Source of the DNA: Gimesia aquarii
GTDB lineage: Bacteria; Planctomycetota; Planctomycetia; Planctomycetales; Planctomycetaceae
NCBI RefSeq assembly: GCF_007748195.1
Contig: NZ_CP037920.1
Location: 2,729,501-2,793,500, forward strand
DNA: 64,000 nucleotides
Direction of reading: 5' to 3'
The notes under the pieces were generated by a model. It saw only the letters and a program-made list of their open reading frames with translations, was not told where the DNA came from and did no database searches. How positions within the stretch are numbered: the first letter of the stretch is position 1; every line of letters begins with the position of its first letter. A program made the translations under genes and the position numbers. Below are positions 46,967-60,915 of the stretch, piece after piece.

Positions 46967-47803
46967 TTAATGTTGCCAGCTGAATTCGGGAGAGAATCCT
47001 ATGAGCTTTCGAGCCTTTTCAATGCTGATCACACTTGCCCTTCCAGGTAGTGGATGGCGAATCTCCGTCTTTGGTAAGAATTTCTGAATTAAAGATGCCG
47101 TGTTAGTGTCGAATCGAATATCTTCAGCAGCAATATACATCGCTTCGTGACCGGCTGTAGATGCTTCGAGTGCTTGACAACAAGCCTTTGCGGCGTCACG
47201 TACATCAACATAAGGCCAATGAGTGTATTGCACTAGTGAATCGAGTGTGGGGGTAGGCCAGGGTAACGCATTGTATCCATCAGTCTGAATGACATTCATG
47301 ATGCGTAAACTGACTACTGGTATCCCTGTTCGACGGCTGAATGCAGACATCGTTTCTTCGCCTACTACTTTGGAAAGTCCATATGCTTCGAGGGGTGTAA
47401 GAGGGTGAGTTTCATCAACGGGAACATATTCAGGTTGAAAGGCTGTCGCGTCTTCATGCCATCCGAGGACAAAGACAGATGAAGCAAATACGATTCGCTT
47501 AAGACCATGTATGGCAGCCGCCTCAGCAACGTTCCAGGTACTGACTACATTTGTTCGAAACGTATCCGCTTCGGGTTGTGCGAGCGGCCCTGGTACGGCA
47601 CCAAGATGAATCACGCCGTCTGCACCAGCTAAGGCATCGCAAACAGCAGTACGGTCGGTTAAGTCAACATGCATGAACTGCACGTCATTATTCTCAGCAG
47701 CAGTAACATCAAGCGAGAGTATTTCGTAATTTCCTTTCGACAATGCTTTGATCACTTCGCGTCCCAATCGCCCTGAACCACCGGTGACCAGAACTCGTTT
47801 CAT
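46967..47803 (-). CDS. NAD-dependent epimerase/dehydratase (extended SDR)
   Basis: 278 aa. 'VLVTGGSGRLGREVIKAL' nucleotide loop; 'ALAGADGVIHLGAVPGP'; catalytic Y-x-x-x-K in 'LEAYGLSKVVGEE'; Ser in 'IVFASSVFVLGW'. Extended SDRs of this type act on NDP-sugars or uronates (similar to uronate dehydrogenases and UDP-glucose 4-epimerases). Substrate unclear. It follows the 47831 gene by 27 bp on the same strand. Confidence 0.9.
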   Translation of the reverse strand: MKRVLVTGGSGRLGREVIKALSKGNYEILSLDVTAAENNDVQFMHVDLTDRTAVCDALAGADGVIHLGAVPGPLAQPEADTFRTNVVSTWNVAEAAAIHGLKRIVFASSVFVLGWHEDATAFQPEYVPVDETHPLTPLEAYGLSKVVGEETMSAFSRRTGIPVVSLRIMNVIQTDGYNALPWPTPTLDSLVQYTHWPYVDVRDAAKACCQALEASTAGHEAMYIAAEDIRFDTNTASLIQKFLPKTEIRHPLPGRASVISIEKARKLIGFSPEFSWQH

Positions 47804-48325: not shown

Positions 48326-48923
48326 GAGAGAACCTCTGGTGGGAGTTTTATAAACTCAGAAGATACCGTTCACAATTTTGTAATTCAGTGTATAGCACAC
48401 AACGACTATGGCAACTCAATTCTGAATTTACTTGCCTTGTAAATTCACATATGAAATCACATGTTGGTTTATGAGAAATTGATTTCAAAAACTTCCTTGC
48501 TTTCTTCATCTCGGAACTATGGCTGGTGTTCTCAATGAACAAAATCTAATGCGATAGAGATCATCACAATTCATGGCATCATAAGATTGGTCAATCAACA
48601 TTTGAAACCCTCGCGAATCAAATTTGTTTCTGTGGATTCATGCATCAACAAGATGCAAAAAGCATCCAAAAAGATGAGGAGAATGCGTTTTTGTATATTT
48701 TAAGTTGGGTTCATTCCATCTCGAAATCAAGATAAATACTGAATTAATATACATAAATACAAGTTGACATAAGGGTTTATGTGGTCAAAATGGGGCGATT
48801 GCAGGGTATTTATAAATTGGGCGAATTGATTCGTTTTGGTTGTCAATCCTCATTGCCTCTCCATCGCATTTAAAATACTCCTCGGGCCATGAGAATTGAG
48901 AAGATTGAAAATATTATTCTACA
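48326..48923. promoter_or_regulatory. 598-bp divergent control region of the R-body cluster, with an inverted repeat
   Basis: AT-rich intergenic region. At 48764-48788 TTGACATAA is followed, after GGGT, by TTATGTGGTCAA; CATAA/TTATG and TTGA/TCAA pair with a 3-nt bulge. TTGACA is a perfect sigma-70 -35 box, but no good -10 lies 17 nt downstream, so the segment may be an operator. No further gene is visible in the region. Confidence 0.4.
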
Positions 48924-49715
48924 ATGAGTAACCCTCGTTTGACCAAACTTTTTACGTATGCGTCAGCTGGTCTCTACACGCTTTTAAAGGCATTTGAGTA
49001 TGCAGTTGATACAGAACGCTCTGAAATGGAGTTTTCCGTAGAAGTATTTCGTTTGAAGGAATTGCATTTAACCGATGGTGATTTACGCTGGTTAGTATGC
49101 AAAGAATTTGCCGTTCATGGGATCGAAACTACGGTTCCTGCACACAAGCAGCGGCAGTTTATTCTCGATGACTCACTTGTTTTCAACAAACGTTCTTGCC
49201 TTGCGCTGACACTTTCTGGTTATCACGAAACACTTGATGCCAGTTTAAGTTCCTATGACAAACCTGTTGATACCATCGTAACTGGAGATGATCCGAATAA
49301 AAGTCAGGTCACTCAGGAACATTCAGAGTCAAAGAAAATCTTAAGTTTTGGAACTTATCAAAATATTGTCCCAGAGAGATCATCAGAATCATTAAAGCAG
49401 ATGATCCCTTCCTGGCATTCGGAACGTCGTGAGCTGTATTGGAATGGTACTTTGATCAAACGCTATAAAGTTCCGTCTCCTAATCAGGAAACGGTGTTGA
49501 CAGTCTTTGAAGAAGAGAACTGGCCTGTAAGAATTGATGATCCATTACCTTTAAGAGATGGCGTTGTACCAAAACGCAGATTACAGGATACGATTAAAAG
49601 TCTGAATCGTAACCAGCGAAATTCCCTGATCAAATTTCGTGGTGATGGTAGTGGTGAAGGTGTGATGTGGGAAGGTCTGTGCCCAGAGATGTATCCCGAG
49701 AATAATATCCTGTAA
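48924..49715 (+). CDS. Unknown protein with conserved wHTH-like C-terminal domain, first gene of R-body cluster
   Basis: 263 aa, no signal peptide. Not a named family. The last ~85 residues match a C-terminal module common in planctomycete hypotheticals: 'RELYWNGTLIKRYKVPSPNQ', 'EENWPVRIDDPLP', 'RLQDTIKSLNRNQRNSLIKF' and 'FRGDGSGEGVMWE'; the helix-turn-helix-plus-wing layout suggests nucleic-acid binding. The first half ('LRWLVCKEFAVHGIETTVP', 'CLALTLSGYHE') is unique. Position at the head of the cluster makes it a candidate regulator (inference). The ribosome site is weak. Confidence 0.6.
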   Translation: MSNPRLTKLFTYASAGLYTLLKAFEYAVDTERSEMEFSVEVFRLKELHLTDGDLRWLVCKEFAVHGIETTVPAHKQRQFILDDSLVFNKRSCLALTLSGYHETLDASLSSYDKPVDTIVTGDDPNKSQVTQEHSESKKILSFGTYQNIVPERSSESLKQMIPSWHSERRELYWNGTLIKRYKVPSPNQETVLTVFEEENWPVRIDDPLPLRDGVVPKRRLQDTIKSLNRNQRNSLIKFRGDGSGEGVMWEGLCPEMYPENNIL

Positions 49716-49898
49716 ACGACTGCTATAACTAAGAACGCAGGAATGGGTTGCTTGCAGTAGGTTCCCCAAGAGTGACACCGAATTGCCCGTAGTGTAAACA
49801 GGGACAATCGTTGACAATTCCGCCAACGAATTCGTTTTGTAACATGTCACAACAGGTCACGTTACGATCACAGTTAAATACGATTACGGATGAGAACC

Positions 49899-50123
49899 AT
49901 GGCAGAGACCGTTAACAGTCAAGTCGTTGATAGTGTGACGTCTTCAAATCTCAAGGTATTAGGTGATGCTCCCGGGGTCGCTATCGGGATTGTCTATTCC
50001 ACGCTCAGTCAATGTGTGAGTCTGACTATGGCCAGTGCCACATCAACACAACAAGGAATGGATAAAATCGGTGAGACAATTACGACTGTCGGTGTGGTGA
50101 AGATCATGCAACAGATGAAATGA
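49899..50123 (+). CDS. RebB-family R-body protein 1 (diverged)
   Basis: 74 aa from ATG 49899; an ATG 9 nt before is possible. The RebB (PF11747) pattern is clear at the start: 'VNSQVVDSVTSSNLKVLGDA' then 'P...AIG.VYSTLSQCVSLTM' and 'SATSTQQGMDKIGETITTVG'. RebB proteins polymerise into R-bodies, coiled ribbons that unroll on a pH shift in Caedibacter. This copy differs most from the others in the second half and may be a minor or initiating subunit. It lies 184 bp after the wHTH-like gene. Confidence 0.88.
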   Translation: MAETVNSQVVDSVTSSNLKVLGDAPGVAIGIVYSTLSQCVSLTMASATSTQQGMDKIGETITTVGVVKIMQQMK

Positions 50124-50149
50124 AAAACGATTTGAGTGAAAGTTGAGAG

Positions 50150-50521
50150 ATGTCTAATACAGACTTGATTCAATCGATCGCGCATAAAAATGCAGCAGCG
50201 TTCCAGAGTGCACAACAATCGCTTTCCTCGAAGGGAAGTGCTGACTCAGCTCAATCAGTAGGGAAGGCGATGGCCTTTCAAATGGTATCACAGGCAACCG
50301 GGATGTTAGTCGAAGATGCAGCTTCATTTCTTCGAAATGTCATGGAAATTAATTTAGCCATCGTTTCAGTAGCCTCATACGAATATGTAAAGAGCGATGG
50401 TGTGAATGTGATCTGGCTGACCGTGATTAAAGAAGCCTTCAAAGTGATCGAACAGGCAACGGTTGTCTTCACAACCATCTCCAAAGCCGCAGGAGAAACG
50501 TTGAGTCAATTCCCCGCTTGA
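50150..50521 (+). CDS. R-body-associated helical protein 1
   Basis: 123 aa. No named family. It shares a core with the 53530-53973 product: 'QMVSQATGMLVEDAASFLRN' versus 'QSVAQTTAVAIQDAANLMRN'. The N-terminus is Ser/Gln/Ala-rich ('AAAFQSAQQSLSSKGSADSA'), the rest alpha-helical with a hydrophobic segment 'VIWLTVIKEAFKVIEQATVV'. It starts 26 bp after a RebB gene and is surrounded by RebB genes, so it is probably an accessory or cap subunit (inference). Confidence 0.65.
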   Translation: MSNTDLIQSIAHKNAAAFQSAQQSLSSKGSADSAQSVGKAMAFQMVSQATGMLVEDAASFLRNVMEINLAIVSVASYEYVKSDGVNVIWLTVIKEAFKVIEQATVVFTTISKAAGETLSQFPA

Positions 50522-50675
50522 GAAGTCTCTGCGGAATCAGTGTCCCAGTTCAAAACAATATTAGTTCCACCAGACTGCCCTGAAACTGTTTCTAGATCGA
50601 GCTTGTTTTCCTGATACGATCAAATTCAAGTGATAGTTCCTTACCACTGAATTCGTCTCACATCAGGAGAATCTC

Positions 50676-51734
50676 ATGCCGAAGTACAACAAAGTTTTGT
50701 TCATGAGCTACGCAGTTCCCACCTTTTACCCTACTCATTCGGGGCCAGTCGCTCCCGTTGGTGCGGCTCCTTTTGTAAGTCTCTCCAATGCTGATTTGCA
50801 AGATCGGGCACAGAGGTTCGTCAATGTCCTCTATTGGACCAGAGAGAAATTCAAAGACCATTCGGGAATGATTGATGATAAAACATTAAAAATTTTTATG
50901 GCTCCCGAATTTTATTTTCGCAATGCATCTGCAGATGAAGTGGACTCCCGTCGTTTTAATCTCATGACATATTGGGGCTCTTATCCGGCAGAGCTTCGCT
51001 ATGAACTTGCAGAGGCGATTTATGATGCAATTCATGGACAGAATGAATTCAAAGACTGGAGTATTGTTGCGGGGACGATCACCTCTCACCTACCTGGAGA
51101 TGGCGAGTACGTACTTACGGGAGGATTATTGAATACAACCATTTTGATGCGTGGTAAACGAGATAAGATGGATGCATCGGCTCCGTATGTGCTCATGGAG
51201 AAACATTACATTTCGAATATTGACGGACCTGACAAGGACTGGCATGCAAATCTCAACCCTGGGACAATCTTTTCATATGAACTTAATCCCGATCAGTCAT
51301 TAGACAATTTAATTCGTTGGGATGATATGATGTCGGGACTGGAAGTTTGTCTGGACCATTACAAAGGAGTGCTCTTAGACGCATTGACTCTATTATGGAA
51401 TGTGGTCGATCCATCATACCCTCCCTTAGATCTTCAGTTAGTGACATCTTGCGGGATGGACCTAGGGGCTTCAAATGTTGTTGTGAAAAATGGTGCTCTT
51501 GCATTACTCACCGATGGGATGTCTTCCCGAAATTGGCCTAACACCCCGCTCACTCAATTGGGGCGGTTCGATCGAAATAATCTTGCATCTCCCCTTCAAT
51601 TTTACCCACTACCTGAACTGGCCGTTTTGCCTGAAGGCTCTGATTTCCGTGTAACTTACCCGGATTACGAAGGCGAACAGGGGGTCTATGCTTATGAAGC
51701 TGTCGATCTGCTCAAGACAAACTGTCATGGATAG
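50676..51734 (+). CDS. Nitrilase-superfamily (carbon-nitrogen hydrolase) protein within R-body cluster
   Basis: 352 aa, no signal peptide. The three catalytic elements of the nitrilase superfamily are present in order: Glu78 in 'KIFMAPEFYF', Lys176 in 'LMEKHYIS' and Cys225 in 'SGLEVCLDHYKG'. Between them lie the expected strands ('DWSIVAGTI', 'LTGGLLNTTILMRG', the latter as the 'N(S/T)' strand). It is longer than most members, with extra loops at 180-215 and 235-260. Nitrilases, amidases and N-acyltransferases use this fold on nitriles, amides or peptides. It is unexpected among structural R-body genes: it could process subunits or peptides or be a delivered enzyme. AGGAG precedes ATG 50676. 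Confidence 0.85.
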   Translation: MPKYNKVLFMSYAVPTFYPTHSGPVAPVGAAPFVSLSNADLQDRAQRFVNVLYWTREKFKDHSGMIDDKTLKIFMAPEFYFRNASADEVDSRRFNLMTYWGSYPAELRYELAEAIYDAIHGQNEFKDWSIVAGTITSHLPGDGEYVLTGGLLNTTILMRGKRDKMDASAPYVLMEKHYISNIDGPDKDWHANLNPGTIFSYELNPDQSLDNLIRWDDMMSGLEVCLDHYKGVLLDALTLLWNVVDPSYPPLDLQLVTSCGMDLGASNVVVKNGALALLTDGMSSRNWPNTPLTQLGRFDRNNLASPLQFYPLPELAVLPEGSDFRVTYPDYEGEQGVYAYEAVDLLKTNCHG

Positions 51735-51747
51735 GACAATTCAAACA

Positions 51748-51906
51748 ATGCCAGACGAAACTCACTGCCACCAGACTTCCCTGTTTCTATCTGTAGGCAT
51801 GATACAGTTATTTAAGATGATGGTTAGTGATGTATTTGGAGCGAGCCAGAAAGTATTCATAAAGTTACAGGATGTAATTCATACGATTTTTACGACCCGG
51901 GTTTGA
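51748..51906 (+). CDS. Possible small protein between nitrilase and RebB genes
   Basis: 52 aa ('MPDETHCHQTSLFLSVGMIQ' start) with AGGA 10 nt upstream. It has an amphipathic helical part 'LFKMMVSDVFGASQKVFIKL'. It fills the only large gap inside the cluster, but no homology is recognised and it could be chance. Confidence 0.3.
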   Translation: MPDETHCHQTSLFLSVGMIQLFKMMVSDVFGASQKVFIKLQDVIHTIFTTRV

Positions 51907-51960
51907 AGACGATTTCAATGTCACTTTAAATCAAGCAATTCCTCATGAAAGGAGTGAAGG

Positions 51961-52194
51961 ATGGCCAATACCACACCAGAAGTGAATCCTCAGATTACTG
52001 ATGCGATTACTCAGACGAATGTGAAAGTACTCGGAGAAGCCCCTGCGATGGCAATGGGCAGCCTGTACCAGACGATTGGAAATTCAGTGGCAATGGCGGC
52101 TGCCAATGCCGTTTTTGCACAACAGCAGACCTATGTCACTTATCAGGCAGCCAGCACCATGGGTGTATCCAAACTTTTAAGTTTAGAGGTTTAA
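51961..52194 (+). CDS. RebB-family R-body protein 2
   Basis: 77 aa. Textbook RebB: 'VNPQITDAITQTNVKVLGEA', 'PAMAMGSLYQTIGNSVAMAA', 'ANAVFAQQQTYVTYQAASTM', 'GVSKLLS'. It has a strong AAAGGAG ribosome site just upstream. It is nearly identical to the next copy (52289), indicating a recent tandem duplication. Such proteins are Ala/Gln-rich, hydrophobic and assemble into SDS-resistant ribbons. Confidence 0.95.
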   Translation: MANTTPEVNPQITDAITQTNVKVLGEAPAMAMGSLYQTIGNSVAMAAANAVFAQQQTYVTYQAASTMGVSKLLSLEV

Positions 52195-52288
52195 TTGAAC
52201 TCATATGTGAAACAACAGTAGAGCGATCTGTCTCATGGTGAGGCGGGTTTGATCAATTTTGTTTGTTCTTTTCATGAAAGGGCCCCAC

Positions 52289-52546
52289 ATGGCCGACACA
52301 ACACCAGAAGTAAATCCTCAGATTACCGATGCCATTACTCAAACAAATGTGAAAGTTCTTGGCGAAGCTCCCGCGATGGCGATGGGCAGTTTGTATCAGA
52401 CGATTGGCAATTCGGTTGCCATGGCGGCTGCTAACGCCGTTTATGCGCAACAACAGGCTGACGTCACATATCAGGCAGCCAGTACGATGGGGGTTTCCAA
52501 GCTACTGAGTTTGCAGGTTCAGCCGCCACCGCCGAAAACTAATTAA
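52289..52546 (+). CDS. RebB-family R-body protein 3
   Basis: 85 aa from ATG 52289 (AAAGGG 7 nt upstream). It is almost the same as RebB protein 2 over its first ~75 residues, but with 'AVYAQQQADVTYQAASTM' and an added C-terminal tail of eleven residues, QVQPPPPKTN in part. The proline tail is unique in the set and may be a ribbon-end or interaction tag (inference). A strong hairpin follows 10 nt after the stop. Confidence 0.95.
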   Translation: MADTTPEVNPQITDAITQTNVKVLGEAPAMAMGSLYQTIGNSVAMAAANAVYAQQQADVTYQAASTMGVSKLLSLQVQPPPPKTN

Positions 52547-52556
52547 TTTTTTGTTC

Positions 52557-52586
52557 GGAGACCGTTACAGGTTTGTGACGGTCTCC
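52557..52586 (+). promoter_or_regulatory. Strong intercistronic hairpin between RebB genes 3 and 4
   Basis: GGAGACCGT (52557-52565) pairs perfectly with ACGGTCTCC (52578-52586). No T-run follows on either strand, so it is not a terminator; it is more likely an RNA-stability or processing stem that sets different amounts of upstream and downstream subunits. Confidence 0.6.
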
Positions 52587-52638
52587 AAAACCTCTATTAA
52601 CTTAATTAATTCCAGTCAATCAGAAAAAGGGAACTTTC

Positions 52639-52875
52639 ATGCCGAATCAATCTCCAGAAGTAAATCCTCAGATTACCGGTGCTGTCACTCAAACAAATGT
52701 GCAAGTTCTGGGTGCAGCACCAGCCATGTCAATGGGAAACCTGTTCCAGACGATGGGAAATTCTGTTGCCTTGGCAGCTGCCAATTCCGTATATGCGCAG
52801 CAGCAGGGTGATCTCTCTCATCAGGCAACCAGCACGATGGGAGTGACAAAACTATTAAGTGAAGATCCAGAATAA
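52639..52875 (+). CDS. RebB-family R-body protein 4
   Basis: 78 aa. RebB signature: 'VNPQITGAVTQTNVQVLGAA', 'PAMSMGNLFQTMGNSVALAA', 'ANSVYAQQQGDLSHQATSTM', 'GVTKLLS'. AAGGGA lies 7 nt before the ATG. It is closely related to copies 2 and 3 but more diverged, with an acidic end 'SEDPE'. Confidence 0.95.
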   Translation: MPNQSPEVNPQITGAVTQTNVQVLGAAPAMSMGNLFQTMGNSVALAAANSVYAQQQGDLSHQATSTMGVTKLLSEDPE

Positions 52876-52937
52876 TTATTGTGTACCCAACTGTGAAATA
52901 ACAGAGGTAAAGCGTTTACCAAACGAGCTTGAGATTA

Positions 52938-53171
52938 ATGAATAATCAACAGGTGAACTCTCAGATCATAGATGCAATCACACAATCGAACGTTGCTGTG
53001 CTTGGAATGGCTCCCGCAATGGCGATGGGTAATCTGTATCAAACGATGGCGAATTCGGTAGCGATGGCCTCCATCAATGCCGTCTACGCACAACAACAAG
53101 CGAATATCATGCATCAGGCGGCTACGGCCAAGTCGGTTGAGATGTTACTTTCACTACAAAAGGATATGTGA
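52938..53171 (+). CDS. RebB-family R-body protein 5
   Basis: 77 aa from ATG 52938; a TTG 9 nt earlier is not needed. 'VNSQIIDAITQSNVAVLGMA', 'PAMAMGNLYQTMANSVAMAS', 'INAVYAQQQANIMHQAATAK'. It lacks the first few residues of copies 2-4 and ends 'SLQKDM'. Its start has no clear Shine-Dalgarno, so expression may be lower or coupled. Confidence 0.94.
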   Translation: MNNQQVNSQIIDAITQSNVAVLGMAPAMAMGNLYQTMANSVAMASINAVYAQQQANIMHQAATAKSVEMLLSLQKDM

Positions 53172-53234
53172 GGATCTGTACTTATCAACCAGTGATTTCA
53201 ATGAAAATAATTGTCTTTATAGAAAGTTTTACTC

Positions 53235-53471
53235 ATGTCCGAGAATCCTCAAGTGAATCCCGCTATTGTCGAAGCGGTAACGATAAACAACGAAAGACTT
53301 CTGATCGATTCGATTGCGGAGTCACAGGGTGTCGTGAATGAGGCTTTCGCTCACTCTCTCTCTCTGATCATGCACAACTCGGGAACCGAACAATTCGCCA
53401 GTTCACAAACCGCTAACGCTGCCGTGGCCAGTACCTGTGCTGCAATTATTAATGCCTCTCTATCAAAGTGA
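53235..53471 (+). CDS. RebB-like protein 6 (highly diverged)
   Basis: 78 aa. 'VNPAIVEAVTINNERLLIDS' keeps the RebB N-terminal plan, and 'AFAHSLSLIMHNSGTEQFAS' and 'SQTANAAVASTCAAIINASL' the helical spacing, but the 'K/QVLG.AP' core is replaced. It lies in line and 63 bp after copy 5, so it is probably a specialised subunit rather than decay. Confidence 0.8.
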   Translation: MSENPQVNPAIVEAVTINNERLLIDSIAESQGVVNEAFAHSLSLIMHNSGTEQFASSQTANAAVASTCAAIINASLSK

Positions 53472-53529
53472 TTTTTAAAAGCAATCAACACCAGCCGACT
53501 TACAATTATCTTTAAGAGAAGAGACGAAC

Positions 53530-53973
53530 ATGGTTGATTCTAATCGCAACATCGACATGGTTCGGGAAAGTGCCCGGCATACTCAAGATCAAGTCGTTCC
53601 ACCACTCAACATTCATCAGAAGAAACACGGTTCTGGCCACGGAGGTGATGTCCATGATGAGACTTTGGAAAGTGGAAATTTCGGTAAACATAATATACCA
53701 ACCGCCTACGATTACGCTGTTGCTAAAGCGGTACAGTCAGTTGCCCAGACTACGGCGGTAGCCATTCAAGATGCTGCTAATTTGATGCGCAACATCAGCA
53801 CTGAAGAAACCGTCGCGATAGGCGTAGCAATGGCCAAGTGGATCGCAGAGCCAGAAAAAGTCATGTATGAAAAAGTGATCAATAAATCACTCGACACGAT
53901 CAAGGAGACCGCAAAAGCATTCAAGGAGATCGGAGATTCTGCCGTCCATGTGTTGCAACAACTCGATCAGTAA
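53530..53973 (+). CDS. R-body-associated helical protein 2
   Basis: 147 aa; diverged relative of the 50150-50521 product through 'QSVAQTTAVAIQDAANLMRN'. Residues 1-60 are polar and His-rich ('NIHQKKHGSGHGGDVHDETL'), possibly metal- or pH-sensitive; 61-147 are helical ('LDTIKETAKAFKEIGDSAVH'). It follows the last RebB-like gene by 58 bp with AAGAG before the ATG. Confidence 0.65.
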   Translation: MVDSNRNIDMVRESARHTQDQVVPPLNIHQKKHGSGHGGDVHDETLESGNFGKHNIPTAYDYAVAKAVQSVAQTTAVAIQDAANLMRNISTEETVAIGVAMAKWIAEPEKVMYEKVINKSLDTIKETAKAFKEIGDSAVHVLQQLDQ

Positions 53974-54049
53974 TCTCATGCATACTTTCGCAAAAAATGT
54001 TTCTGTAATCATTAAATAGAGCTAAATCAAATAGACAAGAGATGGGGAA

Positions 54050-54538
54050 ATGAATTACGAGAACCCAGACCATATTCTTCAACAGCAAGAGCAATATCAG
54101 GCTGCAGTCAGAAACGCAACGAAACTATTACATTCAGCAGTTCTGGACGCGCAACTGGCTGTTACGAAAAGCTTTCAGATAAAGTCATCAATCCAGGATG
54201 CTGCTACTACACAAGAAAGTCTGATCAATGATTCTTTGAAGAACGATTCTACAGCAATCATTGACATTGTAGATAGTGCCTTTCAGAAAGCAAAAGTGAT
54301 TCTGAATGACGCTTCCATGAGTCTGGAAACTTCTCAGATTCTGGATAGTTCTGCGCAAGCTGTTCCTGAACAGCAAATACCAACATTACCCGGTTTTCCT
54401 GCTACGAAAATAACAACTGAGACTGCGGAAAATGATACAGAAACACCTGAAGACCTGTTGTCTCAAAATATGAAATGGATGGATTCATCTATGCTACAAC
54501 TTTTCGAATCAATGCAGAATCAACCTGAAACGAAATAG
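54050..54538 (+). CDS. Helical/low-complexity protein in R-body cluster
   Basis: 162 aa; not recognised. Residues 1-100 are predicted helical and Gln/Ala/Ser-rich ('ILQQQEQYQAAVRNATKLLH', 'SAVLDAQLAVTKSFQIKSSI'), with spacing like the RebB helices; 101-150 are Thr/Glu-rich and flexible. It could be a coiled-coil cap or linker. A weak GAG site precedes the ATG. Confidence 0.6.
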   Translation: MNYENPDHILQQQEQYQAAVRNATKLLHSAVLDAQLAVTKSFQIKSSIQDAATTQESLINDSLKNDSTAIIDIVDSAFQKAKVILNDASMSLETSQILDSSAQAVPEQQIPTLPGFPATKITTETAENDTETPEDLLSQNMKWMDSSMLQLFESMQNQPETK

Positions 54539-54570
54539 TTTCTGCCCCATGATTCCTCAGGAGGTGAATA

Positions 54571-54852
54571 GTGAATGAAAAAAAGCCAACTCAACCCAGT
54601 CGACTCATTGATTCATTAGGTCAAGAACTGACGGCTTGTAAAGAAAAACCGGATTCACCGGTTAAGGCCAGTGGAGGTCAATGGGCGTTTGAGTATTCCG
54701 GCACAAATGTAAAAAAACTGACGATGAGTGTCACAGTTCAATTGCATTCACCGATACCGATGAGTTTAGAGTTGTATTCAGAACTTAACGAATGTGGTAT
54801 TCAACAATTAAAAAAATGGTTAGACCACTTACCTCTTGAGAAACGCGAATGA
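54571..54852 (+). CDS. Small conserved-looking protein coupled to the methyltransferase
   Basis: 93 aa, GTG start with AGGAGG 6 nt upstream. A basic, polar N-half then 'QWAFEYSGTNVKKLTMSVTV' and 'LYSELNECGIQQLKKWLDHL'. Its stop at 54850-54852 overlaps the methyltransferase start (ATGA), so the two are translated in a coupled way. No family recognised. Confidence 0.65.
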   Translation: MNEKKPTQPSRLIDSLGQELTACKEKPDSPVKASGGQWAFEYSGTNVKKLTMSVTVQLHSPIPMSLELYSELNECGIQQLKKWLDHLPLEKRE

Positions 54853-55538
54853 ACACACTGACGACCCATCCAAACAAACTGCCAGTTGATATCGAACGTG
54901 TTTCTGACTTCTACAAACGAGGAATTGCGAAGTTTGGCGCTCACACAATTCAGGCTGCCTGCTGGTCATCCTCCGATTTAGCGCTTCAGTGCTATCACGC
55001 CATCTCACAATCTCAGATTCAGGATTGGCAACAGATTAAATCCGTGCTGGATTTTGGGTCGGGGCAGGGGCATTTGCTACCGTTTATCAGACAAATGCGT
55101 GGATTTCGCGGCACGTATCTGGGAGTCGAACTACTTCCGGAGTTTCACCATGTCGCTATGCAACTCTATGCAACTGATAAGAGTGCTGAATTTGTCTGCT
55201 CTGATTTTCTTTCTTATGATTTTCAAGATCAGGTTTTTGACTGGGTTATCTCTCTTGGTTCGTTTGGTGTCGCACAACCACAGCAAGTTGAGTCTGATAT
55301 CGCCAACGTCAGAAAAATATCGACACTAGCCCGACGCGGGTTCAGTATTTATCTCAATGATGTCAACAAAATGAATTCTGTTCCTAAAGATCTGGCAGCA
55401 CACGATCTGGGAAAGTTCTCCTCTTTAATTCTTGAGCAACATCCTGACGCACAACTGGATTTCGTTTGGTTTCCAACACCAGAATCATACCAATCCGTGA
55501 TTCATGTTTTACTTAATCAAACGGCCTCTAAAATATAA
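54849..55538 (+). CDS. SAM-dependent methyltransferase, last gene of R-body cluster
   Basis: 229 aa. Class I Rossmann methyltransferase: motif I 'VLDFGSGQGHLL' with D68-F-G-S-G-Q-G74, then 'YLGVELLPEFHHVAMQLY' (acidic loop Glu), 'FVCSDFLSYDFQDQVFDWVI' (motifs II/III). No signal peptide. The ATGA overlap ties it to the 93-aa gene and thus to the cluster. It may modify an R-body subunit or a small molecule; the substrate is not evident. Confidence 0.88.
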   Translation: MNTLTTHPNKLPVDIERVSDFYKRGIAKFGAHTIQAACWSSSDLALQCYHAISQSQIQDWQQIKSVLDFGSGQGHLLPFIRQMRGFRGTYLGVELLPEFHHVAMQLYATDKSAEFVCSDFLSYDFQDQVFDWVISLGSFGVAQPQQVESDIANVRKISTLARRGFSIYLNDVNKMNSVPKDLAAHDLGKFSSLILEQHPDAQLDFVWFPTPESYQSVIHVLLNQTASKI

Positions 55539-55586
55539 AAAGAAGTATCAGCGGCGGAACCAGATACGCTTGGTGTATAAAATCTG

Positions 55587-56633
55587 CTATTCATTAGCTG
55601 AGTGTGGATCATTCAAGCGTTTGAGTGGCACTTTTAGAAAATGAACTCCATTCCGATTCATAAACACCGTACCTATATGAGAGTCATCTATCTGAACTGT
55701 GCGTGCTGAATAGTAACGGGCTGTTACAGGTGTTTTGGGGAGCAGAACAATCGTTTGAGTTGAATCCCATGTTTGTCCATCGTCCATCGATAAATTATAT
55801 CTCAGTCCATAATTCTTGTTGCCGATTCCCCATGTAACAAGGACACGTCCATTCGAGAGAGTGGTGAGATATCGACCTTCGGCATTGTCTCGCTTATCGG
55901 GAATAGCGGGAAAACCATTCGCCACTGACCAATGTTGACCATTGTCTGTGGAACGCAGCAGAACCGGTCCCATAGCCAGTAGCGACTCTGTTGACGTACG
56001 TACAATTTGTTGGAATTCATGTTGGTTTTTATCTGGTCCAACTAAGGGGTATGTTGTGAGCGTTTCAGTCTGTGGTTCGAACAGTCGTGGCGGACCAACA
56101 CGTAGCGGTAATAGCCATCGTCCATTACTCCATGGTAGTACATTGTGGCGAACGGCTCCGAGATGCTTTTCATCGATGGGACCTATCAATTGTTGTTCGC
56201 TCCATGTCTGTCCCTGATCTTCACTGAGCGTGTAGAGTAATGCGCGTTCGTAATACCCGTCATTCTGTTTGTCATCGGCAATATAGTTCCAGGTAACAAG
56301 AATGCGGCCGTCTGGCAGGGTATCGGCTGTGCCGGGATAGACTTCAAACTTCTTTACTTTGCGAATGACTTGGGGACGTTTTGCAGAAGTGGGAATCGGC
56401 TTAGGGGCTAACCAGGTCTTGCCTGCATCTTTTGAACGAGAACACATCAACACATTGTCCCCTTTAAAAACGACGATCAATACTCCGTTCCTGGCACGGC
56501 AGATCGACGGATGGATGTGGCCTTTGATCGGTTTAGAAATGATGGAGACTGGTTTTTCATCTGCCTGGGCGCGGTGATTTATCAAAAGCAATGTCATTGT
56601 GAGGACAGAAGCGAATTTGTGATTGTATAACAT
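55587..56633 (-). CDS. Secreted sialidase/BNR-repeat glycosidase
   Basis: 348 aa; signal peptide 1-24 (VLTMTLLLINHRAQA). Four Asp-box (S-x-D-x-G-x-x-W) repeats: 'SKDAGKTWLAP', 'SEDQGQTWSEQ', 'STDNGQHWSVA' and 'SMDDGQTWDST', the mark of a six-bladed exo-alpha-sialidase-like propeller. No FRIP motif is clear, so it may be an inactive or non-sialic-acid member. Its start is 3 bp from the stop of the ceramidase fusion upstream, so they are co-translated. Confidence 0.9.
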   Translation of the reverse strand: MLYNHKFASVLTMTLLLINHRAQADEKPVSIISKPIKGHIHPSICRARNGVLIVVFKGDNVLMCSRSKDAGKTWLAPKPIPTSAKRPQVIRKVKKFEVYPGTADTLPDGRILVTWNYIADDKQNDGYYERALLYTLSEDQGQTWSEQQLIGPIDEKHLGAVRHNVLPWSNGRWLLPLRVGPPRLFEPQTETLTTYPLVGPDKNQHEFQQIVRTSTESLLAMGPVLLRSTDNGQHWSVANGFPAIPDKRDNAEGRYLTTLSNGRVLVTWGIGNKNYGLRYNLSMDDGQTWDSTQTIVLLPKTPVTARYYSARTVQIDDSHIGTVFMNRNGVHFLKVPLKRLNDPHSANE

Positions 56634-59596: not shown

Positions 59597-59668
59597 GGAT
59601 CGATAGCTTAGATGGTAAAGCGCCTGGTTGAAGCCCAGGAGACACGGGTTCGAGCACCGTTTGATCCA
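59597..59668 (+). tRNA. tRNA-Phe (GAA)
   Basis: Acceptor GGATCGA pairs with TTGATCC (one G-U); anticodon stem CCTGG/CCAGG with loop TTGAAGC, anticodon GAA at 59630-59632. The last T-stem pair (G53-A61) is mismatched, which is abnormal. No encoded CCA. Confidence 0.85.
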
Positions 59669-59696
59669 CTTTGCGCTCAAATTGCGCAAACAATAT

Positions 59697-59768
59697 GGCC
59701 CGTTCGTCTATCGCGTAGGATACCGCTCTTTCAAGGCGGAGAGGTGGGTTCGATTCCCATACGGGTCA
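59697..59768 (+). tRNA. tRNA-Glu (TTC)
   Basis: GGCCCGT/ACGGGTC acceptor (one G-U), anticodon stem CCGCT/GGCGG, loop CTTTCAA with TTC at 59730-59732, T-arm with TTCGATT loop. The spacer before it forms a TTTGCGC/GCGCAAA hairpin, possibly a processing signal. Confidence 0.9.
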
Positions 59769-59781
59769 CTATTTTTTTGTT

Positions 59782-59853
59782 GGTAGTCGAGGGTTGGTCG
59801 CCCAAGTCGTTCTGATAAAGCGGCGGCGCTGAGTTCGATTCTCAGGTCTACCA
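59782..59853 (+). tRNA. tRNA-Ile (GAT), degenerate D-arm
   Basis: GGTAGTC/GTCTACC acceptor with one T-T mismatch; anticodon stem TCGTT/AGCGG with two G-U pairs, loop CTGATAA, anticodon GAT at 59814-59816; T-stem CTGAG/CTCAG is perfect. Position 8 is not T and the D-arm is poor. Confidence 0.7.
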
Positions 59854-59931
59854 TTCACAGGTTTATTCGTAACGATTGACCAAGATCGTCCATAAAACAA
59901 ATTTTTCAAGAACAATTCAAAAGGGAATACT

Positions 59932-60060
59932 ATGAGCGAACAAGAACGCTGGAAACAGATACCCCCGACCGATACTCGAGGTCGTGGTGTAATGGTAGCA
60001 TCACTGATTTTTACTCAGGCGGGTGAGGGTTCAAATCCTTCCGACCTCATTCAACATTGA
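59932..60060 (+). CDS. Short ORF overlapping tRNA-Lys, doubtful
   Basis: 42 codons from ATG 59932 with AAGGG 6 nt upstream ('MSEQERWKQIPPTDTRGRG...'). The last two thirds coincide with the tRNA-Lys(TTT) gene. Only the first ~15 codons are outside it. It may be the truncated head of a gene interrupted by tRNA insertion. Confidence 0.25.
   Translation: MSEQERWKQIPPTDTRGRGVMVASLIFTQAGEGSNPSDLIQH
59978..60049 (+). tRNA. tRNA-Lys (TTT)
   Basis: Perfect 7-bp acceptor GAGGTCG/CGACCTC; anticodon stem (A)CTGA/TCAG(G), loop TTTTTAC, anticodon TTT at 60010-60012; T-loop TTCAAAT. It is one of three homologous Lys-like copies in the array. Confidence 0.85.
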
Positions 60061-60129
60061 TGCGTAGCTCAGTGGTAGAGCAGCGTCCTTATAAGTCGCA
60101 GGTCGTGGGATCGATTCCTGCCGCATCAA
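60058..60129 (+). tRNA. tRNA with anticodon TAT (Ile, AUA-type), derived from the Val-like copy
   Basis: Acceptor TGATGCG/CGCATCA is perfect and identical to the tRNA-Val at 60225. Anticodon stem GCGTC/GTCGC has a T-T mismatch; loop CTTATAA, anticodon TAT at 60090-60092, one base from Val TAC. The T-loop starts with A instead of T (ATCGATT). Function doubtful; could be a mutated copy or an AUA decoder. Confidence 0.6.
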
Positions 60130-60142
60130 TTGAACCTAACAA

Positions 60143-60216
60143 TGGGATTGAGGTTTTGATGGCGGAATCCCTAATTCTTATTCAAGTGGATGAAGATTCA
60201 AACCCTTCCGACCTCA
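60143..60216 (+). pseudogene. Decayed tRNA-Lys-like copy
   Basis: Homologous to the Lys copies at 59978 and 60312. Its start shares TGGGATTGAGGT with the latter; its end shares CTTCCGACCTCATTCAACAT with the former, which makes it chimeric. The anticodon stem CCTAA/TCAAG and the last T-stem pair are mismatched; the loop would give CTT. Confidence 0.7.
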
Positions 60217-60224
60217 TTCAACAT

Positions 60225-60297
60225 TGATGCGTAGCTCAGTGGTTAGAGCGGCGTTCTTACAAGACGCAAGTCGTGGGTTCGAATCCCACCGCATCAA
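60225..60297 (+). tRNA. tRNA-Val (TAC)
   Basis: TGATGCG/CGCATCA acceptor; anticodon stem GCGTT/GACGC (one G-U), loop CTTACAA, TAC at 60258-60260; T-loop TTCGAAT is perfect. No CCA. Confidence 0.9.
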
Positions 60298-60311
60298 CTA
60301 AATCTATCAAT

Positions 60312-60384
60312 GGGATTGAGGTGTTAGCGGCAGCATTCTTGGTTCTTACCCAGGTAGGTGAGGGTTCAAGTCCCTCCAGTCCCA
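60312..60384 (+). tRNA. tRNA-Lys (CTT)
   Basis: GGGATTG/CAGTCCC acceptor (one G-U); anticodon stem CTTGG/CCAGG, loop TTCTTAC, CTT at 34-36; T-arm GAGGG/CCCTC. Discriminator A. Confidence 0.85.
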
Positions 60385-60416
60385 CTTCGAAACAATCGAA
60401 AAGAAATTCAATAGAA

Positions 60417-60491
60417 TGCGGTGGTGCTCGTGTTGGTACGGGCGGTCGGCTGTTAACCGACCTGACGCAGGTTCGATTCCTGTCGCCGCAG
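60417..60491 (+). tRNA. tRNA-Asn (GTT)
   Basis: TGCGGTG/CGCCGCA acceptor with U1-A72 and discriminator G as in bacterial tRNA-Asn; perfect anticodon stem GTCGG/CCGAC, loop CTGTTAA, GTT at 60452-60454. Confidence 0.9.
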
Positions 60492-60502
60492 CTTAACAAT
60501 TC

Positions 60503-60585
60503 GGAAGTCATCCGGCTGGATGAGGGGCCTGTCTCGAAAACAGGTGCGGTTCACCCCGTTGTGGGTTCGAGTCCCACGACTTCCG
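60503..60585 (+). tRNA. tRNA-Ser (CGA)
   Basis: GGAAGTC/GACTTCC acceptor, discriminator G; anticodon stem CCTGT/ACAGG, loop CTCGAAA, CGA at 60535-60537; long variable arm of the class II type. Confidence 0.9.
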
Positions 60586-60596
60586 CTACAAAATTT

Positions 60597-60667
60597 GTGC
60601 TCTTGGCCGAGCGGTTAGGTTCCAGATTTCCAATCTGGCCAGGCGGGTTCGACTCCCGCAGAGCACT
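60597..60667 (+). tRNA. tRNA-Gly (TCC)
   Basis: GTGCTCT/AGAGCAC acceptor, discriminator T as in bacterial Gly; stem CCAGA/TCTGG, loop TTTCCAA, TCC at 60629-60631. It touches the next tRNA without a spacer base. Confidence 0.9.
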
Positions 60668-60738
60668 TTGGGGGTCGGCTAATGGGAGGCTACCTGCCTT
60701 TGAAGCAGGAGGTGAAGGTTCGATTCCTTCTCCCCAAA
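60668..60738 (+). tRNA. tRNA-Gln (TTG)
   Basis: TTGGGGG/TCCCCAA acceptor (one G-U), stem CCTGC/GCAGG, loop CTTTGAA, TTG at 60700-60702; T-arm GAAGG/CCTTC. Last gene of the array; no terminator is obvious after it. Confidence 0.88.
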
Positions 60739-60915
60739 AAATTTGAAAAGAGTCGGAATCCAAGACAAAGCAACGGTGCTAGTAAAGAGTTGGAACGAGA
60801 CTTCGTAACCTTAACAGCACACGTTCGTTACCCGTAATCACACACCAGTAGAAGTATATCTAATAGGTTGAGATGGCGGTTTTATTGCCATTTTAAATTT
60901 TTTGCAAATCTAGTA

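Follow-up and report, generated by a model that had tools for sequence, protein, structure and literature searches.

A reb gene cluster in Gimesia aquarii and a nitrilase-superfamily enzyme as a probable partner of its R-body system

Does an enzyme encoded among the genes of an R-body system belong to that system, or did it merely travel with it? The question is raised by a 64,000-nucleotide stretch of DNA (the window; C1:2729501-2793500) from the single-contig 7.4-Mb genome of Gimesia aquarii (Planctomycetota), in which 13 genes, all on the + strand, run across 48924-55538 in the following order: a gene for a 263-residue protein, reb1, a gene for a 123-residue protein, a gene for a 352-residue enzyme, reb2 to reb6, genes for proteins of 147, 162 and 93 residues, and a methyltransferase gene. 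A reading made from the letters alone (the sequence-only reading) had described this run as a cluster of R-body (reb) genes, with enzyme genes inside it, in a planctomycete-like genome; all the genes that it named are present on the + strand of this span, and a RebB profile search returns six matches. Taken as a whole, we regard the locus as a horizontally acquired R-body operon in which the 352-residue enzyme would be a dedicated partner of the ribbon system rather than a passenger, an account that we hold to be probable though well short of secure. Published work is cited below by PMC number.

All six reb genes exceed the cut-off of 24 bits of the Pfam family PF11747 (RebB), with scores from 29.2 to 95.8 bits, and a search of the whole genome at E up to 0.001 recovers the same six genes and nothing else in 7.4 Mb. 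The full 'VNPQITDAITQTN...VLG.AP' plan that had been ascribed to all six is found in reb2 and reb3 only, and the others vary. When read on the alignment, reb2 and reb3 also have all three of the motifs QITD, NAV and QQQ listed for primary Reb proteins in PMC13430693, reb4 and reb5 retain most of them, and reb1 and reb6 are divergent. At the DNA level, reb3 is 82% identical to reb2 over 231 bases and reb4 is 75% identical to it (repeat family D1); the start of reb3 most likely lies at 52289 rather than at the upstream TTG. The best match of reb1 among nine loci compared is a Reb protein of a Bealeia plasmid, and that of reb6 is a gene of a second planctomycete, G326. Asn and Gln seem to be abundant in the Reb proteins. 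Sequence search yielded no PDB relative of reb2, which matches phrog_32040, a functionally uncharacterised PHROGs family, at 4.3e-18, implying that RebB-like proteins are present in phage collections. Tandem reb genes and their partners occur here in one gene run, as is characteristic of R-body systems, with intergenic gaps of -4 to 226 bases, and the run would be expressed as a single transcript; a scan for promoters and terminators did no better than chance.

The 352-residue protein had been placed in the nitrilase superfamily by the sequence-only reading, and its predicted structure bears this out even though the family databases are blank: at E up to 1, neither it nor those relatives that were scanned match any Pfam family, CN_hydrolase included, and it also matches no NCBIfam, PADLOC or PHROGs model at the thresholds used and no PDB entry by sequence search. 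An AlphaFold2 model built from 54 sequences (predicted local distance difference test score, pLDDT, 89.2; predicted template-modelling score 0.92) was compared with the PDB using Foldseek, which returned 208 chains at E up to 10 and 77 at E up to 0.001 (best E 2.7e-6). The best 50 of the 208 chains are nitrilase-superfamily proteins, all by title except for one that is titled hypothetical but belongs to the superfamily, and the matches include formamidase, beta-ureidopropionase and cyanide dihydratase. Identity to the PDB nitrilases is 8-13%, with a root-mean-square deviation of 8-14 A over the whole alignment and a template-modelling score of 0.34-0.46 over the query. The model is consistent with an alpha-beta-beta-alpha nitrilase fold, and in the alignment of 85 rows, two of which are duplicates, E78 is conserved in 85, K176 in 83 and C225 in 84. 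These residues presumably correspond to the catalytic Glu-Lys-Cys triad of known nitrilases. Hence, the superfamily assignment is upheld on the strength of the model and of the putative triad. We also considered whether this protein could be HP1.1, the protein of about 360 residues described by Raymann, and rejected the identification, as it shows no similarity to the presumed HP1.1 proteins (hhalign probability 0.2).

A scan with short conserved patterns, which is not exhaustive, covered 84,980 species by a single genome each and found 78 loci with homologues of the enzyme. Eleven are close homologues, 49-56% identical to the window enzyme, and come from Paracidovorax (4), Luteibacter (2), Lysobacter, Dyella, Rhodanobacter, [Pseudomonas] boreopolis and a metagenome-assembled genome of the Burkholderiales. 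According to a Reb model built here, reb-like genes share the strand of the enzyme gene and lie no more than about 4 kb from it in 11 of these 11 loci, and they accompany 1 of the 67 distant homologues (L068, on the G326 contig), where the absence from the other 66 refers to the DNA examined around the enzyme, some of the contigs being short. L068 repeats the locus L020, the reb genes of which helped to seed the Reb model, and its hit therefore does not test that model independently; none of the 11 close loci served as a seed. Four Reb-like genes, three small genes and the enzyme gene make up the run in all 11 close loci, joined in 10 by a gene for a protein of about 231 residues, and in L031 the enzyme gene precedes the reb-like genes instead of following them while still lying close. 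The four Reb-like families are kin to each other, and two of them are linked to RebB by profile comparison (probability 93.7, E 1.9e-7). Co-occurrence was also counted in two taxonomic groups. Of 17 genomes in the genus group of Paracidovorax cattleyae, 7 contain the enzyme and 10 contain Reb-like genes, all 7 being among the 10 and having Reb-like genes within about 5 kb of the enzyme. In the family of the Rhodanobacter locus (147 genomes), the enzyme occurs in 3 genomes, all of which are among the 13 with a Reb-like match. Both searches were centred on genomes known to hold the enzyme, so these counts are not a random sample.

In a tree of 82 of the 85 rows (after removal of both rows of L068 and of a poor one from L061), the 14 reb-linked rows require 2 changes, against a mean of 13.2 when the labels were shuffled, and 0 of 500 shuffles gave so low a value; this is a quick tree whose branches, some of them long, have a single measure of support, and near-copies make the contrast with the shuffles look larger. 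The window enzyme lies in a clade of 12 rows, all of them reb-linked (Shimodaira-Hasegawa-like approximate likelihood ratio test, SH-aLRT, 100), and is nearest to the proteobacterial enzymes. The G326 locus (L020 = L068) has five reb genes, an HP1.2-like gene and a tandem pair of enzymes from the broad family of the window enzyme; the pair falls in a separate part of the tree. On this tree, the same broad enzyme family would therefore have reached reb loci at least twice.

Two further contexts recur around distant homologues of the enzyme. One combines a phage-tail-collar protein with a glycosyltransferase and, in some cases, an FkbM methyltransferase, in Comamonadaceae, Nannocystis, Massilia and others (L039, L042, L045, L051, L052, L054, L058, L064, L082, L085). 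In the other, a protein of about 767 residues (as in L040) that belongs to no Pfam family adjoins the enzyme (L037, L038, L040, L041, L043, L046, L047, L056).

Several observations weigh against a dedicated partnership between the enzyme and the ribbon. Four reb genes of Caedibacter alone yield R-bodies in E. coli (PMC3583457). A single-sequence search of about 8 kb on each side gave no match to the enzyme in any of six classical reb loci (Eleftheria, Azospirillum, Vibrio, Bealeia, Ruegeria, Burkholderia). Among the genomes with Reb-like genes, 3 of 10 in the Paracidovorax group and 10 of 13 in the Rhodanobacter family are devoid of the enzyme, three of the latter matches being strong, and the distant homologues occupy unrelated gene clusters. 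A genome-wide RebB search, which took in 50 of the 78 loci, matched 7 genomes: that of G326, 2 of the 11 with close homologues and 4 of 38 with distant ones, and in these last 4 the RebB genes lie outside the DNA examined around the enzyme. That PF11747 matches at E up to 0.001 appear in only 2 of 11 close-homologue genomes shows the distance of their Reb proteins from the Pfam model; at L029, two Reb-like proteins score 20.3 and 21.4 bits, below the cut-off, and two have no match. As classical loci and many reb carriers are without it and its distant homologues reside elsewhere, the enzyme is best seen as an accessory rather than a core part of the system.

Under the partnership that we favour, the four close paralogues reb2 to reb5 would be the likely ribbon subunits, forming a coiled cytoplasmic ribbon that extends on a trigger, with reb1, reb6 and the two HP1.2-like proteins acting in assembly or as minor ribbon parts, and the product of the first gene perhaps regulating the operon. 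The enzyme would most likely carry out a cysteine-dependent amide reaction on R-body proteins or on a molecule carried or delivered by the ribbon. Processing of the ribbon itself is attractive, given that the Reb proteins look Asn/Gln-rich and that R-bodies withstand sodium dodecyl sulphate, urea and guanidinium with no role for disulphides (PMC13430693). A more specific proposal, which we put forward as unlikely in its full form, is that R-body operons have, on at least two occasions, taken up a nitrilase-fold enzyme from a branch that Pfam and NCBIfam do not name, and that this enzyme processes the Reb ribbon covalently, by deamidation or amide cross-linking, or else its cargo.

The alternative that survives best retains the link between the enzyme and the R-body but relocates its substrate: the enzyme would make or activate a small molecule, a killing factor or an immunity factor, that the R-body delivers, leaving the ribbon untouched. 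Nitrilase-superfamily enzymes act mostly on small amides and nitriles, and the structural matches to formamidase, beta-ureidopropionase and cyanide dihydratase, together with the presence of a methyltransferase in the same run, are in line with such a role. Killing by Caedibacter is also thought to require a toxin beyond the R-body (PMC3583457; PMC13430693). However, no biosynthetic gene is among those recurring in the 11 close loci, and the methyltransferase is not conserved. We judge this account somewhat unlikely.

The methyltransferase deserves separate treatment, as the sequence-only reading had counted both enzyme genes as parts of the system. It was rightly recognised as a terminal, coupled gene: it matches the Pfam family Methyltransf_25 (6.4e-10), and its start overlaps the stop of the 93-residue gene by 4 bases. 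Its matches to the PADLOC model mad2 (2.4e-6) and to PHROGs look generic, as do weak matches in 4 of 39 other relatives. No match was obtained in the G326 reb locus, the six classical reb loci or the 11 proteobacterial loci, and we reject it as a conserved R-body part since it is without a counterpart at the other reb loci examined. Of the association proposed earlier, what stands is the nitrilase-fold enzyme, which adjoins reb genes elsewhere. The view that both the enzyme and the methyltransferase are passengers picked up in transfer, with no role in the R-body, fits the methyltransferase well and draws on the classical reb loci and the many reb-bearing genomes that have no such enzyme. For the enzyme we consider it improbable: all 12 rows of its fully supported clade are reb-linked, a second and separate linkage is seen in G326, and in L031 the enzyme gene lies close to the reb-like genes despite the altered order.

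It is quite improbable, in our assessment, that the locus makes a Reb-type polymer other than an extending R-body, for instance one that serves storage or adhesion or resembles a shell. Many reb carriers have yet to be confirmed as R-body producers (PMC13430693), and we found no report of ribbons in Planctomycetota in the open-licence literature; yet, reb2 and reb3 have the full set of primary-Reb motifs, and reb4 and reb5 most of it.

As to where the block came from, its flanks align at 93-96% with a sister genome, G002, in which 243 bp take the place of the window's 7259 bp (blastn of the window against L100, with matches longer than 80 bases listed); the neighbouring BNR protein of the sister is 93% identical to that of the window, and its site contains no reb remnant. 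The G+C content of the block is 43.1%, against 45.7% in the remainder of the window. RebB matches are absent from all 58 other relatives searched, of which 16 share the genus, 20 the family and 22 the class. R-body genes are rare in Planctomycetota as a whole, where RebB matches occur in 3 of 392 genomes. Apart from the present one, these are G326, with several reb genes, and G122, with a single partial RebB-like match that lies within a charged protein of 226 residues (L021 7054-7734). No direct repeat joins the edges of the block, as judged from the repeat listing and from reading both edges, and none of the window genes stood out as an integrase or transposase, although no search was aimed at such genes. 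Reb genes are found on plasmids in 17 records, and the enzyme matches two Azospirillum plasmid records, the single stretch examined there having no reb match; among viral contigs, two scans for the enzyme gave no relative, and a scan for RebB gave a single match, of 26 residues, within another protein. Neither the viral-contig scans nor the plasmid records thus yielded a phage or plasmid vehicle for the block. On the above comparisons we infer that the block was acquired by horizontal transfer. That it is instead ancestral and was lost by nearly all relatives is very improbable, for although no repeats or mobility genes were seen at its edges and similar reb genes form a locus in a second planctomycete, its absence from the 58 genus, family and class relatives would call for many losses, and the enzyme is nearest to proteobacterial ones.

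The proteins of 123 and 147 residues form one family with a protein of 115-116 residues that follows the reb genes on plasmids of Eleftheria and Azospirillum, and which we take, by size and place, to be HP1.2 of Raymann, a protein of about 110-120 residues reported among the conserved neighbours of reb genes (PMC3583457). Over 80 residues, the 147-residue protein shares 52.5% identity with a protein encoded at the G326 reb locus; its identity to the Azospirillum and Eleftheria counterparts is 43-44%. The two proteins had been described as helical accessory relatives; their match to HP1.2-like, reb-adjacent proteins holds, and their tie to RebB itself is weak (hhalign probability 69). An HP1.2-type partner, identified in this manner, thus accompanies the reb genes as in the Group 1 loci of Raymann, and no HP1.1-like protein of about 360 residues was found in the window.

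The first gene of the run belongs to a planctomycete-type family, with a second copy in the same genome (41% identical) and relatives in 8 of 40 genomes, its own included (7 of 39 others). The model of its product has a mean pLDDT of 60 and is good only from about residue 11 to 110; it has no PDB match at E up to 0.001, and its weak matches (best E 0.05) are mostly MarR/PadR winged-helix proteins. Tentatively, it might be a winged-helix regulator of the operon, which would fit its position, given that sigma factors and Crp/Fnr proteins hold that place in other reb loci. The 162-residue protein, labelled coiled-like in the sequence-only reading, gave no useful score with any Pfam, NCBIfam, PADLOC or PHROGs family and has no match in the reb loci compared. 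For the 93-residue protein, a single blastp comparison gave a weak match to a G326 protein near reb (E 0.004; 31% over 54 residues), and phmmer gave no counterpart in the reb loci compared. Its equation with the 104-residue protein of the proteobacterial loci was rejected (profile probability 0.1).

Table 1. Positions of the reb block and of the genes of the run, numbered along the window
Feature	Position	Strand	Evidence
Whole block	48338..55596		7259 bp vs 243 bp in sister genome G002 (blastn)
263-residue protein, possible winged-helix regulator	48924..49715	+	
reb1, RebB family, 77 residues	49890..50123	+	PF11747 57.4 bits, 1.6e-15
123-residue HP1.2-like protein	50150..50521	+	phmmer E 3.9e-9 to Azospirillum 116-residue protein adjoining reb
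352-residue nitrilase-superfamily enzyme, putative triad E78, K176, C225	50676..51734	+	predicted fold, triad conservation
reb2, RebB family, 77 residues	51961..52194	+	PF11747 95.8 bits, 1.6e-27
reb3, RebB family, 85 residues	52289..52546	+	PF11747 95.4 bits, 2.1e-27 (scanned from 52286)
reb4, RebB family, 78 residues	52639..52875	+	PF11747 81.6 bits, 4.3e-23
reb5, RebB family, 80 residues, TTG start	52929..53171	+	PF11747 87.6 bits, 6e-25
reb6, divergent RebB family, 78 residues	53235..53471	+	PF11747 29.2 bits, 1e-6
147-residue HP1.2-like protein	53530..53973	+	similarity to G326, Azospirillum and Eleftheria proteins
162-residue protein, no known family	54050..54538	+	no family model match
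93-residue protein, GTG start	54571..54852	+	possible counterpart adjoining reb in G326
229-residue class I methyltransferase	54849..55538	+	Methyltransf_25 6.4e-10

Outside the block, a gene for an NAD-dependent epimerase at 46967-47803 on the - strand has a best match of 36% identity in 16 other genomes of the genus; the sister genome shows no blastn match longer than 80 bases in this slot, and a second replaced segment may therefore adjoin the left side of the block. On the other side, 11 tRNA genes, including tRNA-Ile(tat), are arrayed in about 1.1 kb (59597-60739, +); the sister genome has the same 11 in the same order, and the array is an ordinary one.

The occurrence of the enzyme beside reb genes in unrelated bacteria hints at an unnoticed chemical step in R-bodies. 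If this is true, enzymatic processing of the ribbon or its cargo could explain the unusual insolubility or the triggering of some R-bodies. Two old questions concern the agent that kills once an R-body has opened and the cause of ribbon insolubility, and the enzyme is a concrete candidate for both. It is a catalytic-looking protein travelling with reb genes across phyla, whose contribution is testable through one cysteine, and the three Paracidovorax-group genomes with Reb-like genes and no enzyme offer a natural comparison. The case also documents an R-body block in one planctomycete species that is missing at the matching site of the nearest relative examined. In the open-licence literature, we found no paper on R-bodies and a nitrilase or on R-bodies in Gimesia, and for RebB and Planctomycetota only PMC13430693. 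This 2026 survey counts one Planctomycetota taxon with 3 or more reb genes, so R-body genes had already been reported from the phylum; the taxon may be the species of the window or the G326 planctomycete. By its own statement, the survey leaves aside non-Reb neighbours such as HP1.1.

Among known systems, the Group 1 loci of Raymann (PMC3583457), to which we assign those of Azospirillum and Eleftheria by the sizes and order given in that paper's text, resemble the window in having tandem reb genes followed by weak Reb relatives and by an HP1.2-type protein of 115-116 residues, comparable to the 123- and 147-residue proteins, but they also carry an HP1.1-like protein of 355-357 residues that was not found in the window and is unrelated to its enzyme. 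The operons of Pseudomonas aeruginosa PA14 (PMC8322103) and Azorhizobium (PMC5527310) likewise pair RebB-family ribbons with non-Reb partners, and the non-Reb gene AZC_3784 of Azorhizobium is essential for its ribbons (PMC5527310). Their partners are different, however, comprising a sigma factor, a Crp/Fnr regulator, RcgA and RapA, and the word nitrilase does not occur in PMC8322103. The divergent four-Reb loci of Paracidovorax, Lysobacter, Dyella, Luteibacter, Rhodanobacter and others (L022-L032) resemble the window in placing the closest homologues of the enzyme beside Reb-like genes. They differ in that their Reb proteins form another branch, below the Pfam cut-off where scanned, and in that their partners of 67, 73, 104 and about 231 residues match no window protein. 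R-bodies have been seen by microscopy in Acidovorax avenae, which is credited with four divergent Reb proteins (PMC3583457); it is now named Paracidovorax avenae at NCBI and may be among the 17 genomes of the group searched here. The enzyme itself shares the predicted fold and the Glu-Lys-Cys triad with nitrilase-superfamily members such as BceAmiF, vanin-1, beta-ureidopropionase and Nit2, but stands apart from them in its 8-13% identity, loose superposition and lack of a Pfam family. The G326 locus (metagenome-assembled genome maxbin.317) has counterparts of reb2 to reb6, an HP1.2-like gene, possibly a counterpart of the 93-residue gene, and enzymes of the same broad family, although these are 22-29% identical to the window enzyme in the alignment and belong to a separate branch; a gene upstream of it (L020 8695-9696) reads, when judged by eye from its sequence, like a sigma-54-dependent activator. 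Measured against these systems, the Gimesia locus appears to be a further occurrence of a known kind of reb operon, and what seems new is its nitrilase-fold partner, linked to reb genes in two separate branches.

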